This document shows positions 2,384-6,689 of a stretch of 10,004 nucleotides of DNA, piece after piece. A model generated the notes under the pieces. It had not been told where the DNA came from. It made no database searches and saw nothing but the letters and a program-made list of their open reading frames with translations. The DNA comes from Streptomyces lilacinus (GTDB lineage: Bacteria > Actinomycetota > Actinomycetes > Streptomycetales > Streptomycetaceae): positions 119,799-129,802 of the forward strand of contig KL569415.1 of assembly GCA_000715685.1 (NCBI GenBank), given 5' to 3'. Positions within the stretch are counted from its first letter, which is position 1; each line of letters begins with the position of its first letter. The position numbers and the translations under genes are program-made.

Positions 2384-2602
2384 CGGGCCCAGCGGGTTCG
2401 GTTTCCCGAGCTCCCGAGCTCCTGAGCCGGGGGCCGGTCGCGATCGATCGCCGTGGGCCGCCCGCCGCCATTGCCTGCTGAGGGCGTCCTAGGGATCCGG
2501 GGATCCGGTCAGGCCGGTTTCCCGCTTGTGCGGTCCCGGCCCCACGGGAACGCTGTTGGCCCTCACCCCTGGCATATGCATGCCTTCGAGGAGGGAACAG
2601 CC
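2384..2602. other. Intergenic region before the repeat-rich secreted protein
   Basis: This 219-bp stretch contains two tandem GAGCTC units near 2409-2422, a doubled GGATCCGG motif near 2494-2508, and a small GGCAT/ATGCC inverted repeat at 2571-2584. The frame of the following gene is open back to 2453, but residues upstream of 2603 have no signal-peptide character. No clear promoter hexamers were found. Confidence 0.3.
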
Positions 2603-3622
2603 ATGCCCTTCAGACACACCGCCGTCGGCGCGCTCGTCACAGGTCTCGTACTCGTAGCCGCGCCCACGCTCCCGGCCGCGACCGCCGCGGCTCTCCCGCC
2701 CGGCTGCACCAGCGGCGCCCTGCCGGCCGGCGGCGTCCACCTCGTGTGCACCCGGGGCGTCCCCGCCGGTACGACACTCAGCGGCACCGACCGGGCGGAC
2801 ATCATCGAGGTCAGGGGCGGCGACGACGTCAGTGGCCACCTGGCCGGCGTGATCAACGGCCTCGGCGGGGACGACGTCGTCATCGTCGACAAAATCCTCT
2901 CCAGCGGCAGCGGAAGAAACATCCGCGGGTCCGTCGACGGCGGTGACGGCGACGACAAGATCACCGTGACCGACATGGACAAGTTCAGCGTCCAGGGCAC
3001 CATTCACGGTGGTGCGGGCAACGACACCATCACCACCGGCGAGGTGTCCTATCTGGGGGGCATCGACGGTGGTGCCGGGAACGATGTGATCACCACCGGC
3101 GACGTGTACAGCAGCACGATCGACGGCGGAGACGGCAACGACATCCTCCGCCTCGCCGCCTTCCGCGTACCCGGATATGACAAGGCGAGCCGTCTCGACG
3201 GCGGAGGCGGCAACGACACCATCACGGTCGGGAAGCTGGCCGGCCCCCTCCATGGCGGCCCCGGTGCGGACGAGATCACCGTGGGCGGGACAACCCCCAT
3301 AGAATCCCGCCTCCCCAAGCCCGCCACCGTTTACGGGGACGAAGGCGATGACGTCATCCGCGTCGGGGCGATCGGCGCGGGCGACGGGGCGCGCGCCACC
3401 TACGTCAGCGGGGGCACCGGAGCCGACCTCATCGAGGTGCCGTCCGCCGGGCAGGACGGATACGCCACGGTCTCCGGGGACGACGACGATGACGTCATCC
3501 AGGGACCGGGCGCCACGCCGGTCGTCCTCGGCCCGTACGGGACCGTCGACGGCGGCGAGGGCGACAACACCTGCCGCACCGACAACAACGCGGGCGGCAC
3601 GGTCACCAACTGCCGGAGCTAG
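2603..3622 (+). CDS. Secreted protein with RTX-like calcium-binding repeats
   Basis: A 339-residue protein with a Sec signal peptide: MPFRHTAV, a hydrophobic stretch (about 9-22), then small residues, with likely cleavage near A28-A30. The rest carries about eleven repeats of the form G-G-x-G-(N/D)-D-x-I/V-x (for example GGAGNDTITT, GGDGNDILRL, GGTGADLIEV). This is the RTX/haemolysin-type calcium-binding pattern that folds as a parallel beta-roll when calcium is bound. The repeats are spaced by roughly 15-30 residues rather than in strict tandem. Four cysteines flank the repeat domain (C35, C49, C324, C337) and could form capping disulfides. The ATG at 2603 is chosen because GAGGAGGGA (2588-2596) lies 6 nt upstream and a signal peptide follows directly. 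No protease, lipase or other enzyme domain is visible, so it is probably a structural or calcium-binding extracellular protein. The secretion call is solid; the function is unknown. Confidence 0.85.
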   Translation: MPFRHTAVGALVTGLVLVAAPTLPAATAAALPPGCTSGALPAGGVHLVCTRGVPAGTTLSGTDRADIIEVRGGDDVSGHLAGVINGLGGDDVVIVDKILSSGSGRNIRGSVDGGDGDDKITVTDMDKFSVQGTIHGGAGNDTITTGEVSYLGGIDGGAGNDVITTGDVYSSTIDGGDGNDILRLAAFRVPGYDKASRLDGGGGNDTITVGKLAGPLHGGPGADEITVGGTTPIESRLPKPATVYGDEGDDVIRVGAIGAGDGARATYVSGGTGADLIEVPSAGQDGYATVSGDDDDDVIQGPGATPVVLGPYGTVDGGEGDNTCRTDNNAGGTVTNCRS

Positions 3623-3658: not shown

Positions 3659-3883
3659 GTGCCGTTGACTGATGCCCGGTGGGCCAGGATCGAGCCGTTG
3701 CTGCCGGACCGGGCACCAAAGCGTGGTGGTCGGTGGCGGGATCACCGTGAGGTGATCGATGCGATCGCGTGGAAGTACCGGACAGGCTGCCCATGGCAGG
3801 ACCTGCCCGGGCGCTACGGCTCGTGGAAGGGTGCCGACACCCGGCTGCGGAACTGGGCGGTCGACGGCACCTGGGAGAAAGTG
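3659..3883 (+). pseudogene. Truncated IS5/IS4-type transposase (N-terminal fragment)
   Basis: Reading from a GTG, residues 1-75 match the N-terminal DNA-binding domain (DUF4096 type) of IS5-group transposases, including LTDARWARIEPLLPDR, GGRWRDHREVIDAIAWKYR, and WAVDGTWEKV. In complete elements the frame continues into the DDE catalytic core, with motifs such as VDSTIVRAHQHAAG. None of that is present here: homology stops at about 3883 and the frame runs into unrelated sequence. It starts 36 bp after the stop of the RTX-like gene. A GATCA/TGATC inverted repeat lies just upstream at 3636-3647, but I could not identify terminal inverted repeats or a target duplication. It is a dead insertion-sequence remnant. 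Confidence 0.8.
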
Positions 3884-4039
3884 TCCGTCCCCCACACGGA
3901 AGAGCTGCCCGCCCCCCCCGCTCCGCCCACAAACGCATCGCCCGCTCCGGGGAGAGAGAAGCCCACCCGCACCATCCGGTTCGTCACCCTGCGGCACAAC
4001 CTTCGCCGCGATGACCGCGACACCGCAGGCGAGGACCAC

Positions 4040-4207
4040 ATGCGGCGTGTCTACCGGCACCGCTGGTTCATACGCCCTCACCCGACGAACCAGCTCTCCA
4101 CCGGCGAAATCAAGAAGATCTGGCGTGGCCCGTACCCCGTTGTCCCGCCCGGCTGCGGGCACGCGCCGATCCTCGGAGGCGGCCGCTTCAACGTCCTGCG
4201 CCGCTGA
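4040..4207 (+). CDS. Hypothetical small protein, in frame with the transposase remnant
   Basis: A 55-residue ORF beginning MRRVYRHRWF and ending FNVLRR, basic and aromatic, with KKIWRGPYPVVPPGCGHAP in the middle. GAGGA (4031-4035) lies 4 nt before the ATG. About 87% of third codon positions are G or C, which supports coding. The frame is open from the transposase GTG at 3659 through to this stop, so the whole 182-codon stretch could be one chimeric gene. The segment 3884-4039 also has coding-like third positions but no family I recognise. A run of eight C residues at 3912-3919 means that frame continuity depends on that run being correct. I do not recognise the family. Confidence 0.45.
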   Translation: MRRVYRHRWFIRPHPTNQLSTGEIKKIWRGPYPVVPPGCGHAPILGGGRFNVLRR

Positions 4208-4472: not shown

Positions 4473-4474
4473 CT
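4443..4474 (-). terminator. Possible stem-loop at the end of the minus-strand block
   Basis: AGACCAG (4443-4449) pairs with CTGGTCT (4468-4474). The pairing extends through CCA/TGG with one bulge, and the stem overlaps the stop codon of the repeat protein (4473-4475). No U-rich tail follows on the minus strand, so it may be a transcript-end or stabilising hairpin rather than a classical intrinsic terminator. Confidence 0.3.
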
Positions 4475-5528
4475 ATTGGATTGTGGTGGGTTCCTCCGCC
4501 ATCGTGGTGCCTGGTCGAACGGTCCAGGTTCCACTGCCGGCGGGGGTTTCCACGGAGCGGGACTTGAGGGCTTCGACGTCTACATCAGGTGGCCACTGGG
4601 TGCCGGTCATGGACCAGCGCACGCCATCAAGGCTGATGCCGCGCAGGTCAGCGTTGCGCAGGTTGGATGTCGTGAAGTCGTGAAGGAACCTGTCAACCAG
4701 ATTCATGTCGAGCGCAGACAGGTCCCGGCCGAGCATTTCGCTGAGGGTCTTCTTCACCCCCTTGGTCCAGATGTCCACCAAGTTGAGGATCAAGCCGAGG
4801 GCACGGTCGAGGTCGAGGGAGAGGTTGATGGCGACGGTGCGGGCGACGACGTTTCGGTCGTTGTCGAGGTCGTGGGCGAGCCTGAGGGCGAGGCCGTGGG
4901 CGACGTCGAGGGCACGGGCGAGGGCTCGGGCATGGGGGCGGGCGAGGTCGGCGGTGAGGCTGGGCGCGAGGTCGTTGACGATAAGGCCGTGGGTGAGGTC
5001 GCGGGTGAGGTCGCGAGTGATGAGGTCATGGGCGTCTTCGAGGTCATGGGCGATGACGACGACGAGGTCGCGAGTGCTGGCGAGGTCGCGGGCGTCTTCG
5101 AGGCCATGGGTGAGCGCGCGGATCCGCTCGAGGCTGTGGGTAACGATGCGGTCGAGGGTGCGGACGTGGTCCAACCTGCGGTGTGAACGTGCGACGTCGG
5201 GATGGGCACGCAGTTGCATGCGGGCCTCTGCGCCCACGGACTCCAAGAGTTGCTGGGCGAGGGAAGAATCTGTGGCCGCGGTATTCGGATGCGCTGGAGG
5301 GCGGGGCCCGGGCGGGGCTGTGGAGAGTACTTCGTGCAGGCCGGCTTCGACGTCGAGGACGGTGTCGAGGTTGTCGACCATGGCGTCGGGGCGGGACTGG
5401 AGCAGGACTTCGTGCAGGCCGGCTTTGACGTCGAGGACGGCGTCGAGGTCGTTCATCATGGCGCGCTGCTGGGCGAGCCAGGGGTCTGTGGTGGGGTCGT
5501 ATGCGTCAGTCTCGTGGTGACTGGTCAC
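4473..5528 (-). CDS. Asp-Leu helical-repeat protein with pentapeptide-like C-terminus, sigma-factor partner
   Basis: A 351-residue protein of unknown function. It starts with a GTG overlapping the sigma-factor stop codon by 4 bp (GTGA) and has a strong SD, GGAGGAGGAA (5540-5531), so translation is probably coupled to the sigma factor. Residues 28-42 and 54-68 are near-identical copies of a 15-residue segment (LDxVLDVxAGLHEVL) spaced 26 residues apart. Residues 120-255 are mostly helical with many (R/H)DL triplets at 4-8 residue spacing and no strict heptad. Residues 285-306 (FTTSNLRNADLRGISLDGV, then RWS) resemble pentapeptide repeats, followed by a short tail with SVETPAGSGTWTVRPG. From memory, proteins ending this way commonly neighbour sigma factors in actinomycetes, but no biochemical role is known to me. 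There is no signal peptide or membrane segment, so it is probably cytoplasmic. Candidate roles are sigma regulator or scaffold (inference). Confidence 0.8.
   Translation of the reverse strand: MTSHHETDAYDPTTDPWLAQQRAMMNDLDAVLDVKAGLHEVLLQSRPDAMVDNLDTVLDVEAGLHEVLSTAPPGPRPPAHPNTAATDSSLAQQLLESVGAEARMQLRAHPDVARSHRRLDHVRTLDRIVTHSLERIRALTHGLEDARDLASTRDLVVVIAHDLEDAHDLITRDLTRDLTHGLIVNDLAPSLTADLARPHARALARALDVAHGLALRLAHDLDNDRNVVARTVAINLSLDLDRALGLILNLVDIWTKGVKKTLSEMLGRDLSALDMNLVDRFLHDFTTSNLRNADLRGISLDGVRWSMTGTQWPPDVDVEALKSRSVETPAGSGTWTVRPGTTMAEEPTTIQ
5329..5463 (-). repeat. 78-bp-period tandem duplication inside the repeat protein
   Basis: Bases 5329-5385 recur at 5407-5463 with about 6 differences in 57, a period of 78 bp. 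The period is a multiple of three, so the duplication is in frame and gives the two LDxVLDVxAGLHEVL copies. High DNA identity suggests a recent event. Confidence 0.85.
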
Positions 5529-6097
5529 TGTTCCTCCTCCCCGTGGGCGACGTTTTTGGCGATGGCTTGGCGGGCTTTTTTGAGGCTGGCGCGTACCGCC
5601 TCAGGGGTCATCCCGAGCTGCCCGGCGATCTCCTTGGGCGTGAATTCGCTGATTGTCCAGGCCAGGACTTGGCGTTGTCGGGGCGGTAGCGCTTTCATCT
5701 GTTCCAGCACATCGTGCCGGGCCTCCCATTCCGCCACGGCGTTCGTCCTGAGCAGAGATGTCGGTTCCGGCAGCGGATCGACAGGCTCCTCTCGAACCTC
5801 GGCGAACCGTCGGATGTAGGCGCGCGAGCTGACCGTGTGGACCCATGCCCGGGGTGAACGCAGGTCGTTCCAGCGCCGGTAGGCCACCGTCATGGTGTCC
5901 TGGGCGATGTCCGCGGCTTCCGTCAACGAAGCACCCTGGTTGACCAGGAAGCCGATCAGGCCACGGATGTTCTTGCGATAGAAGTCTGAGAACTCCCCGT
6001 CCACGGCCAGGCGCTCCCGGCTGCGGTGGCCGAGCGCATGGTCCTCGTGCGCGGCTGCCCGGGGATCGGTGCCGTCCGCCGGCTCGCGGGTACTCAT
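5525..6097 (-). CDS. Sigma-70 family RNA polymerase sigma factor, ECF-like
   Basis: A 190-residue protein with sigma region 2 at about 36-98 (FYRKNIRGLIGFLVNQG, AADIAQDTMTVAYRRW, then an RAWVHTVSSRAYIRR helix for -10 recognition) and region 4 at about 130-182 (LPPRQRQVLAWTISEFTPKEIA, then a helix-turn-helix GMTPEAVRASLKKAR). There is no region 3 or 1.1, as in the extracytoplasmic-function group. The ATG at 6097 overlaps the stop of the upstream membrane-protein gene (ATGA), and AGGAGGG lies 5 nt upstream. Its own stop overlaps the next start (GTGA). No zinc-binding ZAS-type anti-sigma factor is adjacent; its partners are the small membrane protein upstream and the repeat protein downstream. 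It probably directs transcription of a small regulon; the inducing signal is unknown. Confidence 0.92.
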   Translation of the reverse strand: MSTREPADGTDPRAAAHEDHALGHRSRERLAVDGEFSDFYRKNIRGLIGFLVNQGASLTEAADIAQDTMTVAYRRWNDLRSPRAWVHTVSSRAYIRRFAEVREEPVDPLPEPTSLLRTNAVAEWEARHDVLEQMKALPPRQRQVLAWTISEFTPKEIAGQLGMTPEAVRASLKKARQAIAKNVAHGEEEQ

Positions 6098-6351
6098 CCT
6101 CGCCCCTCCTGCGTCCCCGTCGAGCCACAGATGATCTCTATTCGCAACCGGTGGCCATCACTGCGCTGCTCGTCGACCTTCATCCGGCTCCCCCCGGGGA
6201 CCGCCTCGATGGTACGGGCGAGGTATTGGCGCTGCTCCCGCTCTTGCTGCGCTCGCCAGCGCAGGCGTAGCCACAGGCTGAGCAGGGCACACACCTGTCC
6301 CACAACGATCGCGACGATGGTGACGGCAGGCGTGGCCGTGTCCACGGTCAT
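6094..6351 (-). CDS. Small single-pass membrane protein upstream of the sigma factor
   Basis: An 85-residue protein with one hydrophobic segment at about residues 9-28 (PAVTIVAIVVGQVCALLSLW), followed by a basic, probably cytoplasmic, helix (RLRWRAQQEREQRQYLAR), then a short C-terminal domain with PGGSRMKVDEQ and LRIEI. The charge pattern predicts an outside N-terminus and inside C-terminus. The ATG at 6351 is chosen because AGAGGGGG (6366-6359) lies 7 nt upstream. An in-frame ATG at 6369 would add six residues and would overlap the stop of the preceding ORF by 4 bp. The stop overlaps the sigma-factor start (ATGA). A membrane protein coupled to a sigma factor could tether or sense for it, but it shows no known anti-sigma motif. 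Function is inferred only from context. Confidence 0.72.
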   Translation of the reverse strand: MTVDTATPAVTIVAIVVGQVCALLSLWLRLRWRAQQEREQRQYLARTIEAVPGGSRMKVDEQRSDGHRLRIEIICGSTGTQEGRG

Positions 6352-6365
6352 CCAGCATCCCCCTC

Positions 6366-6689
6366 TCATACAGTCCCAGGACCAGCGGCCTGGCCCCGTC
6401 GTAGAGGAGAGGCCAAAAGGGCCGGCTCCGTGAACTCCGTCGTGGGGTTTCGCCGAGGCGCTGCGCCACGTGGAACGGGCGGTGCGCGCGCTCTGGGGCT
6501 GTCGGGCGGAGGGGCGGTCTGCGGCGACTCGTCGAAGGGGCGGACGGTGCTACGTCGTGCCTCTGGGGCTGGAAGGAGGGCGAAGCACGGGCCAGCGGAC
6601 TGGGCCCGCGGGTCCTGGCTCAGACACCAGCCGCAAAGTTGCGGGGTGATCATGTGCTCGCCGTTGTGGGGCCTGCTCGTCGTGTTCAC
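6366..6689 (-). CDS. Doubtful hypothetical protein between the Nudix gene and the membrane protein
   Basis: A 107-residue ORF starting at a GTG. Its start overlaps the restored Nudix stop by 4 bp (GTGA), and its own stop overlaps an in-frame ATG of the next gene (ATGA). Residues 13-45 (from MITPQLCGWCLSQDPRA) look protein-like and hold a CxxC plus another Cys, as in a small metal site. The C-terminal half is Pro/Arg/Ala-rich with poorer third-position bias and may be non-coding. The SD upstream of either start (6689 or the ATG at 6653) is weak. The overlap pattern argues for a gene; the composition argues against it. Confidence 0.38.
   Translation of the reverse strand: MNTTSRPHNGEHMITPQLCGWCLSQDPRAQSAGPCFALLPAPEARRSTVRPFDESPQTAPPPDSPRARAPPVPRGAAPRRNPTTEFTEPALLASPLRRGQAAGPGTV

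Follow-up and report, generated by a model that had tools for sequence, protein, structure and literature searches.

A conserved, overlapping trio of membrane protein, ECF-type sigma factor and repeat protein genes in actinomycetes, preceded by a promoter-like element

Among the main routes of bacterial signalling are the ECF sigma factors, for many of which no regulator is known (review PMC8999054). The same question is raised by a locus of Streptomyces lilacinus in which the gene of such a sigma factor (SIG) overlaps those of a small membrane protein (MEM) and of a repeat protein (RP): which partner restrains the sigma factor and what does it switch on? The window, i.e. the whole stretch of 10,004 nucleotides analysed here, comes from a genome of 7.56 Mb (assembly 86.5% complete), whose nearest relatives, judged by the trio genes, are Streptomyces.

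All three genes lie on the minus strand. MEM (6351..6094) encodes 85 aa, counted from a start at 6351 (an in-frame ATG at 6369 is an alternative), SIG (6097..5525) encodes 190 aa, and RP (5528..4473) a protein of 351 aa that belongs to no Pfam family. As an earlier sequence-only reading had described, the genes overlap by 4 bp, with ATGA at the MEM stop/SIG start (6094-6097) and GTGA at the SIG stop/RP start (5525-5528), and the SD sequences that it had noticed are present, an AGGAGG-like sequence standing 5' of both downstream starts (SIG and RP). SIG matches the Pfam families Sigma70_r2 (25.7 bits, cut-off 24) and Sigma70_r4_2 (39.7 bits, cut-off 25.7) and the NCBIfam model of the ECF superfamily, TIGR02937 (46.3 bits, cut-off 42.9); by its domain content, with regions 2 and 4, it is therefore an ECF-type sigma-70 factor. 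In NCBIfam its best match is TIGR02983 (SigE family, Streptomyces sigma factors), yet the 64.4 bits obtained lie under the cut-off of 141.55, and membership in this family was rejected. PADLOC models of anti-phage defence gave no family for MEM, SIG or RP at E<=1.

Several other features were found in the window. A remnant of an IS5-family transposase (3659-4207, plus strand) lies 265 bp from the RP end; it matches DUF4096 with 91 bits and NF033580 with 86 bits, below the cut-off of 110 and over the first 78 of 258 positions only. IS5 transposases also occur near the trios of two plasmid loci, L175 and L177. Further genes on the plus strand encode a protein with RTX-like calcium-binding nonapeptide repeats (2453-3622; HemolysinCabind 27.9 bits, cut-off 23) and a GNAT acetyltransferase with an SCP2-like domain (85-1368; NF002367 315 bits, cut-off 259; the model group includes Eis). 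Positions 2-16 of the window read GTGTATAAGAGACAG, which we take to be Nextera adapter sequence, directly after an N run in the contig, and the same word appears at two further places in another locus (L075:9700-9815). Contig joins at such adapter-like sequence beside N runs may not be real.

A protein search with RP returned 29 proteins, RP itself included, and 32 when the alignment served as query; the source names of these relatives, as shown, were hypothetical or uncharacterised. A profile built from 26 of these proteins found 25 loci in one-per-species genomes, namely of Streptomyces, Streptosporangium and a relative, Nonomuraea, Kitasatospora, [Actinomadura] parvosata and Nocardia. The distribution of the trio genes is patchy, as the profile matched 15 of 120 near genomes and the single RP sequence 9 of 100, the own genome being counted.

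We compared 42 loci with an RP match, 25 of them bearing the RP N-terminal repeats and 17 the C-terminal domain alone (the latter include L029 and L034). The sequence-only reading had mentioned similar neighbourhoods in actinomycetes and had named rare co-occurrence of the homologues as an argument against a common system. In our gene-neighbourhood survey the homologues do co-occur, in a kept order: among the repeat-bearing loci SIG stands directly upstream of RP in 25/25, although L021 is truncated by a contig end and the SIG match in L031 is partial, and MEM precedes SIG in 23/25. The SIG>RP junction is -4 in 21 of the 25, -1 in three and -20 in one, while the MEM>SIG junction is -4 in 18/23, the remaining five having no start near the junction. 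Both RP ends lie in a single open frame in 22/25; the frame is lost in L028 (frameshifted), L065 (with stops) and L066 (which runs off its contig). By contrast, the 17 loci with the C-terminal domain alone gave a SIG match in four cases, none in 13, and a MEM match in none; in this set the N-terminal repeats occur beside SIG only.

As the 42 loci had been found through RP, reverse searches with SIG and MEM were run in 100 genomes as a check. SIG gave five matches above 160 bits, all of them trios (G000, G050, G014, G055 and G013), the next best reaching 133.5 bits; MEM gave nine matches, each adjoining a SIG-like gene, one of which is cut short. Among 296 neighbour genes of 24 loci no trio-specific family was found, and only two general groups were shared. 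Broken copies of the trio are seen in L012, L028, L031, L065, L144, L177 and L178, and in one genome (G049) the promoter-like element and MEM are kept, with SIG reduced to its start. Judged by these comparisons, the MEM-SIG-RP trio is a conserved, overlapping unit in actinomycetes. MEM and RP have no match at cut-off in the libraries searched; ECF sigma factors that have a promoter of their own are of an already known kind. A literature search, which covered part of the ECF literature, returned no publication on the trio.

The conserved element that precedes MEM was examined in 23 loci, where the family consensus is GTTCACG-N17-CTCTTA(C), located 66-99 nt upstream of the MEM start chosen in this analysis. 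In the window it occupies 6393..6455 on the minus strand and comprises GTTCACG (5' base 6435), 17 bases and CTCTCC (6411-6406), with flanking conserved columns (matrix score 40.1). The matrix was made from 22 distinct loci, L017 having been dropped; both blocks are strongly conserved in them, GTTCAC is preceded at 10-18 nt by an A/T-rich block, and behind CTCTTA there is a further, weaker block. With leave-one-out matrices the element was the best site of its locus, on both strands, in 22/22, a test that is not fully blind because the aligned sites had been chosen as best matches to a pattern found by eye. The scores ranged from 0.7 (Nocardia) and 8.0 (L066) up to 45.3. The core alone was best in 21/22 (rank 5 in the Nocardia locus), and the block after the -10 block alone in 0/22. 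A scan of both strands of 43 loci (609,848 bases) gave 24 sites with a score over 10, i.e. 23 trio promoters (L017 included) and one site in L034 (17.6), compared with none or one in each of five shuffles.

Because the aligned sites had been pattern-picked, plasmid loci were held out as a further test; seven were fetched of ten hits, none of which had been used earlier. In the four plasmid trios with MEM the element was the best site in every case, with scores of 15.0, 28.6, 27.8 and 32.8, the runner-up never exceeding 4.6; in the three plasmid loci without MEM no site scored above 2.5. The weakest held-out site (L175) has its -10 block one base closer. On these alignments, a conserved promoter-like element precedes the sigma operon, and our inference is autoactivation, with SIG switching on its own operon through GTTCACG-N17-CTCTTA.

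Few copies of the element were found elsewhere. In its own genome the pattern had seven exact matches (one for the reversed pattern) and 21 with at most one mismatch (seven for the reversed pattern), and the trio copy alone scored above 8 among all of these; some of the others contain sequencing-adapter sequence, and adapter-like sequence lies beside N runs at the matches on contigs C7 and C11. A stricter pattern had 14 matches in 18 trio genomes, against five for its reverse: ten trio promoters, one site of Streptomyces sp. CBMA152 with a score of 35.2, and three sites below 5. As it misses 9 of the 19 trio promoters in these genomes, further weak targets are possible. The CBMA152 site (L097, G124:C15:380892-381127) is unlinked and stands before a 44-aa ORF that resembles only the N-terminal repeat of RP (E about 1e-4, the set of ORFs being small). 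It lies within 236 bp that carry 29-bp inverted repeats, 86% identical, with CTAG on both flanks, and that occur as a single copy in the genome; in our interpretation this stretch is either a small mobile element or a relic.

Self-activation predicts that a sigma factor and its promoter change together, and the more distant relatives of SIG fit this prediction. Among those of about 94-134 bits a MEM-like gene (15-27 bits) precedes SIG in five loci, with a third gene that differs from RP or with none called; the latter is the case in L138, which has MEM and SIG. In L070 and L071, on the other hand, the SIG relative is accompanied by an RP-like C-terminal domain, and MEM gave no match there. The third gene of one related MEM-SIG operon (L143:3778-5727; 649 aa) has an N-terminal extension with DIDAKL/DVEHKL motifs, behind which its product looks like a NuoF-type redox protein by sequence.

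Before such related operons another element occurs, GTCACR-N16-GCACT, first spotted by eye in five loci and then tested on all 17 non-trio SIG loci of the set. An exact copy was found in the 600 nt preceding the SIG match in 7/17 (L137, L138, L139, L140, L141, L070 and L071), of which L137, L139, L070 and L071 were not among the loci used to spot it. By chance, 0.005 copies per 600 nt would be expected, a rate derived from 15 matches in a total of 1.75 Mb, both strands counted and these sites included. In L143 the element lies just beyond 600 nt, with 17 bases between the blocks, and L147 has it with two mismatches; the remaining eight loci lack it at 0 or 1 mismatch, the best having two in L142 and L145. 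When the two elements are aligned on TCAC, their spacing is the same.

The sequence-only reading had seen no classical anti-sigma factor in the trio, and none is recognisable for MEM or RP in Pfam or NCBIfam at E<=1. MEM has a single hydrophobic segment (residues 10-28), predicted to cross the membrane once, followed by the start of a basic tail, a feature which that reading had also picked out and which proved basic in 16/16; this tail is probably cytoplasmic. No Pfam family exceeds its cut-off, the best match being LapA_dom (13.3 bits, cut-off 28). The trio resembles the canonical pair of an ECF sigma factor and a membrane anti-sigma factor, as set out in the review PMC8999054 (abstract and section 8), in its ECF sigma factor, its one-pass membrane protein within the operon and its promoter-like element; it differs in that MEM is upstream, has about 85 aa and matches no anti-sigma family, and in that a large third gene is coupled to SIG. 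With the ECF sigma factors without cognate anti-sigma factor it shares the lack of a recognisable one, but none of the partners that we found named for these in section 3 of that review is a short membrane protein together with an RP-like protein.

RP consists of three parts. The conserved N-terminal region (5319..5471, minus strand) holds two LDxVLDxEAGLxxIL repeats. A 78-bp tandem repeat (5321-5463, 87% matches) coincides with both of them; relatives also carry both, and the repeats may have been copied recently in this lineage or have undergone conversion with each other. The central domain (residues 110-266; 4731..5201, minus strand) is a predicted four-helix bundle of varying length in relatives, and the C-terminal domain (4506..4712, minus strand; FLxDFTTxDLRxADLxGxxLxGVRWS...) is the best-conserved and most confidently modelled part. 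The mean pLDDT of the AlphaFold model is 76; the N-terminal helices are of low confidence (47-53 at residues 31-70), while the C-terminal domain modelled alone reached 83.5.

A lattice of two residues, and hence of six bases, underlies the centre of RP. In 26 proteins the Leu-Leu spacing there is even in 636/723, compared with 45% in shuffles (maximum 50%) and 285/528 in the ends of the same proteins, and the chance of a Leu is 0.24-0.39 at distances +2, +4 ... +16 and 0.02-0.04 at odd ones. The lattice is mostly [A/D][L/R] in the clearest members, with phase shifts in the window RP and some others. At least 85% even Leu spacing in a leucine-rich 120-aa window was found in 12 of 25 RP-like proteins and in 0/224 other proteins of these loci. 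The helical periodicity modestly exceeds that of shuffled dipeptides, with a mean z of 1.34 and values above 2 in 7/26. The earlier description of RP as a pentapeptide-like repeat protein is for the most part incorrect: only about 20 residues near the C-terminus weakly match solved pentapeptide proteins in the PDB (E 0.03-1), whereas the DL-rich part is predicted to be helical and follows the two-residue lattice. With no Pfam family at E<=1 and a mostly helical model, RP differs from pentapeptide repeat proteins, and a pentapeptide solenoid was rejected.

Based on these observations, we tentatively suggest that the trio might be a self-contained, self-activating ECF sigma cassette, a reading whose chance we place just short of even. 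SIG would recognise GTTCACG-N17-CTCTTA before its own operon and by feedback raise MEM, SIG and RP together, while MEM would sequester SIG in an inactive state at the membrane, to be released by an envelope signal. As the main product of the operon, RP would act through its helical bundle and its C-terminal domain, and its N-terminal LDxVLDxEAGL repeats would adjust the feedback by contact with SIG or MEM. MEM is favoured as the regulator, and as the likeliest brake, because a MEM-like gene is still found next to SIG in operons with another third gene; RP is favoured as an output with a sigma-linked N-terminus because its C-terminal domain occurs without SIG in 13/17 loci and its repeats only beside SIG (25/25). 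Several points run counter to this cassette: the rank of the Nocardia core, the shifted -10 block of L175, the incompleteness of the assembly, L070 and L071 without MEM and L138 without a third gene; moreover, a third protein could bind the element.

Not far behind is the possibility that RP itself is the anti-sigma factor of SIG or its sensor, with the repeats folding on SIG, the bundle and the C-terminal domain sensing a cytoplasmic signal and MEM as an anchor or accessory. Sigma and anti-sigma genes often overlap, as SIG and RP do by 4 bp in 21/25 loci; the N-terminal repeats are conserved beside SIG alone, their low model confidence might be that of a segment which folds on a partner, and L070 and L071 pair SIG with an RP-like protein in the absence of a MEM match. 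Nevertheless, we consider this explanation doubtful, as the C-terminal domain mostly occurs without a SIG match, MEM-SIG pairs persist with other third genes and RP matches no anti-sigma family. It is improbable that SIG governs a global stress response through a wide regulon with otherwise divergent promoters, the operon being one target only and RP and MEM acting as regulators. A pattern that misses nearly half of the trio promoters would let weaker targets escape too, and one strong unlinked site exists in CBMA152, but the trio copy stands alone above 8 among the 21 near matches of its own genome, and the four non-trio matches in 18 genomes do not exceed the five of the reversed pattern.

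The element might also be the binding site of another regulator, with SIG acting elsewhere, and the weaker conserved block after the -10 block could then be an operator. This is very unlikely: the fixed spacing of the two blocks and the A/T-rich block upstream of them agree with a promoter, a different element stands before related sigma operons, and the downstream block is not distinctive by itself. Least probable of all, to the point of being hardly credible, is that the overlaps are a by-product of dense gene packing and reflect no joint function of the three proteins. Short gene overlaps are common in actinomycete genomes, and several trio copies are broken, as dispensable genes would be; yet the same order recurs in several genera without a trio-specific family among the neighbours, and one element is common to the trio loci, so that order, neighbours, element and overlaps together make this explanation already unlikely.

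A further suggestion, which is more speculative than the cassette and to which we give a rather small chance, is that MEM-SIG might be a transferable switch with its own promoter specificity, driving little beyond its own operon and combined with different third genes. RP would then be a cargo whose helical domain, laid on a six-base (two-codon) lattice, could be quickly rewritten, being hypervariable between conserved ends, one of which would face SIG. The two-residue lattice is in any case an unusual way of encoding a helical domain. The trio looks like a portable self-activating switch with testable parts, and, being compact and having a clearly predicted promoter, it would allow regulator and output to be tested directly in laboratory Streptomyces. 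The two promoter classes, of the trio and of the related operons, constitute a natural test of how promoter recognition by ECF sigma factors changes, and might possibly provide orthogonal switches.
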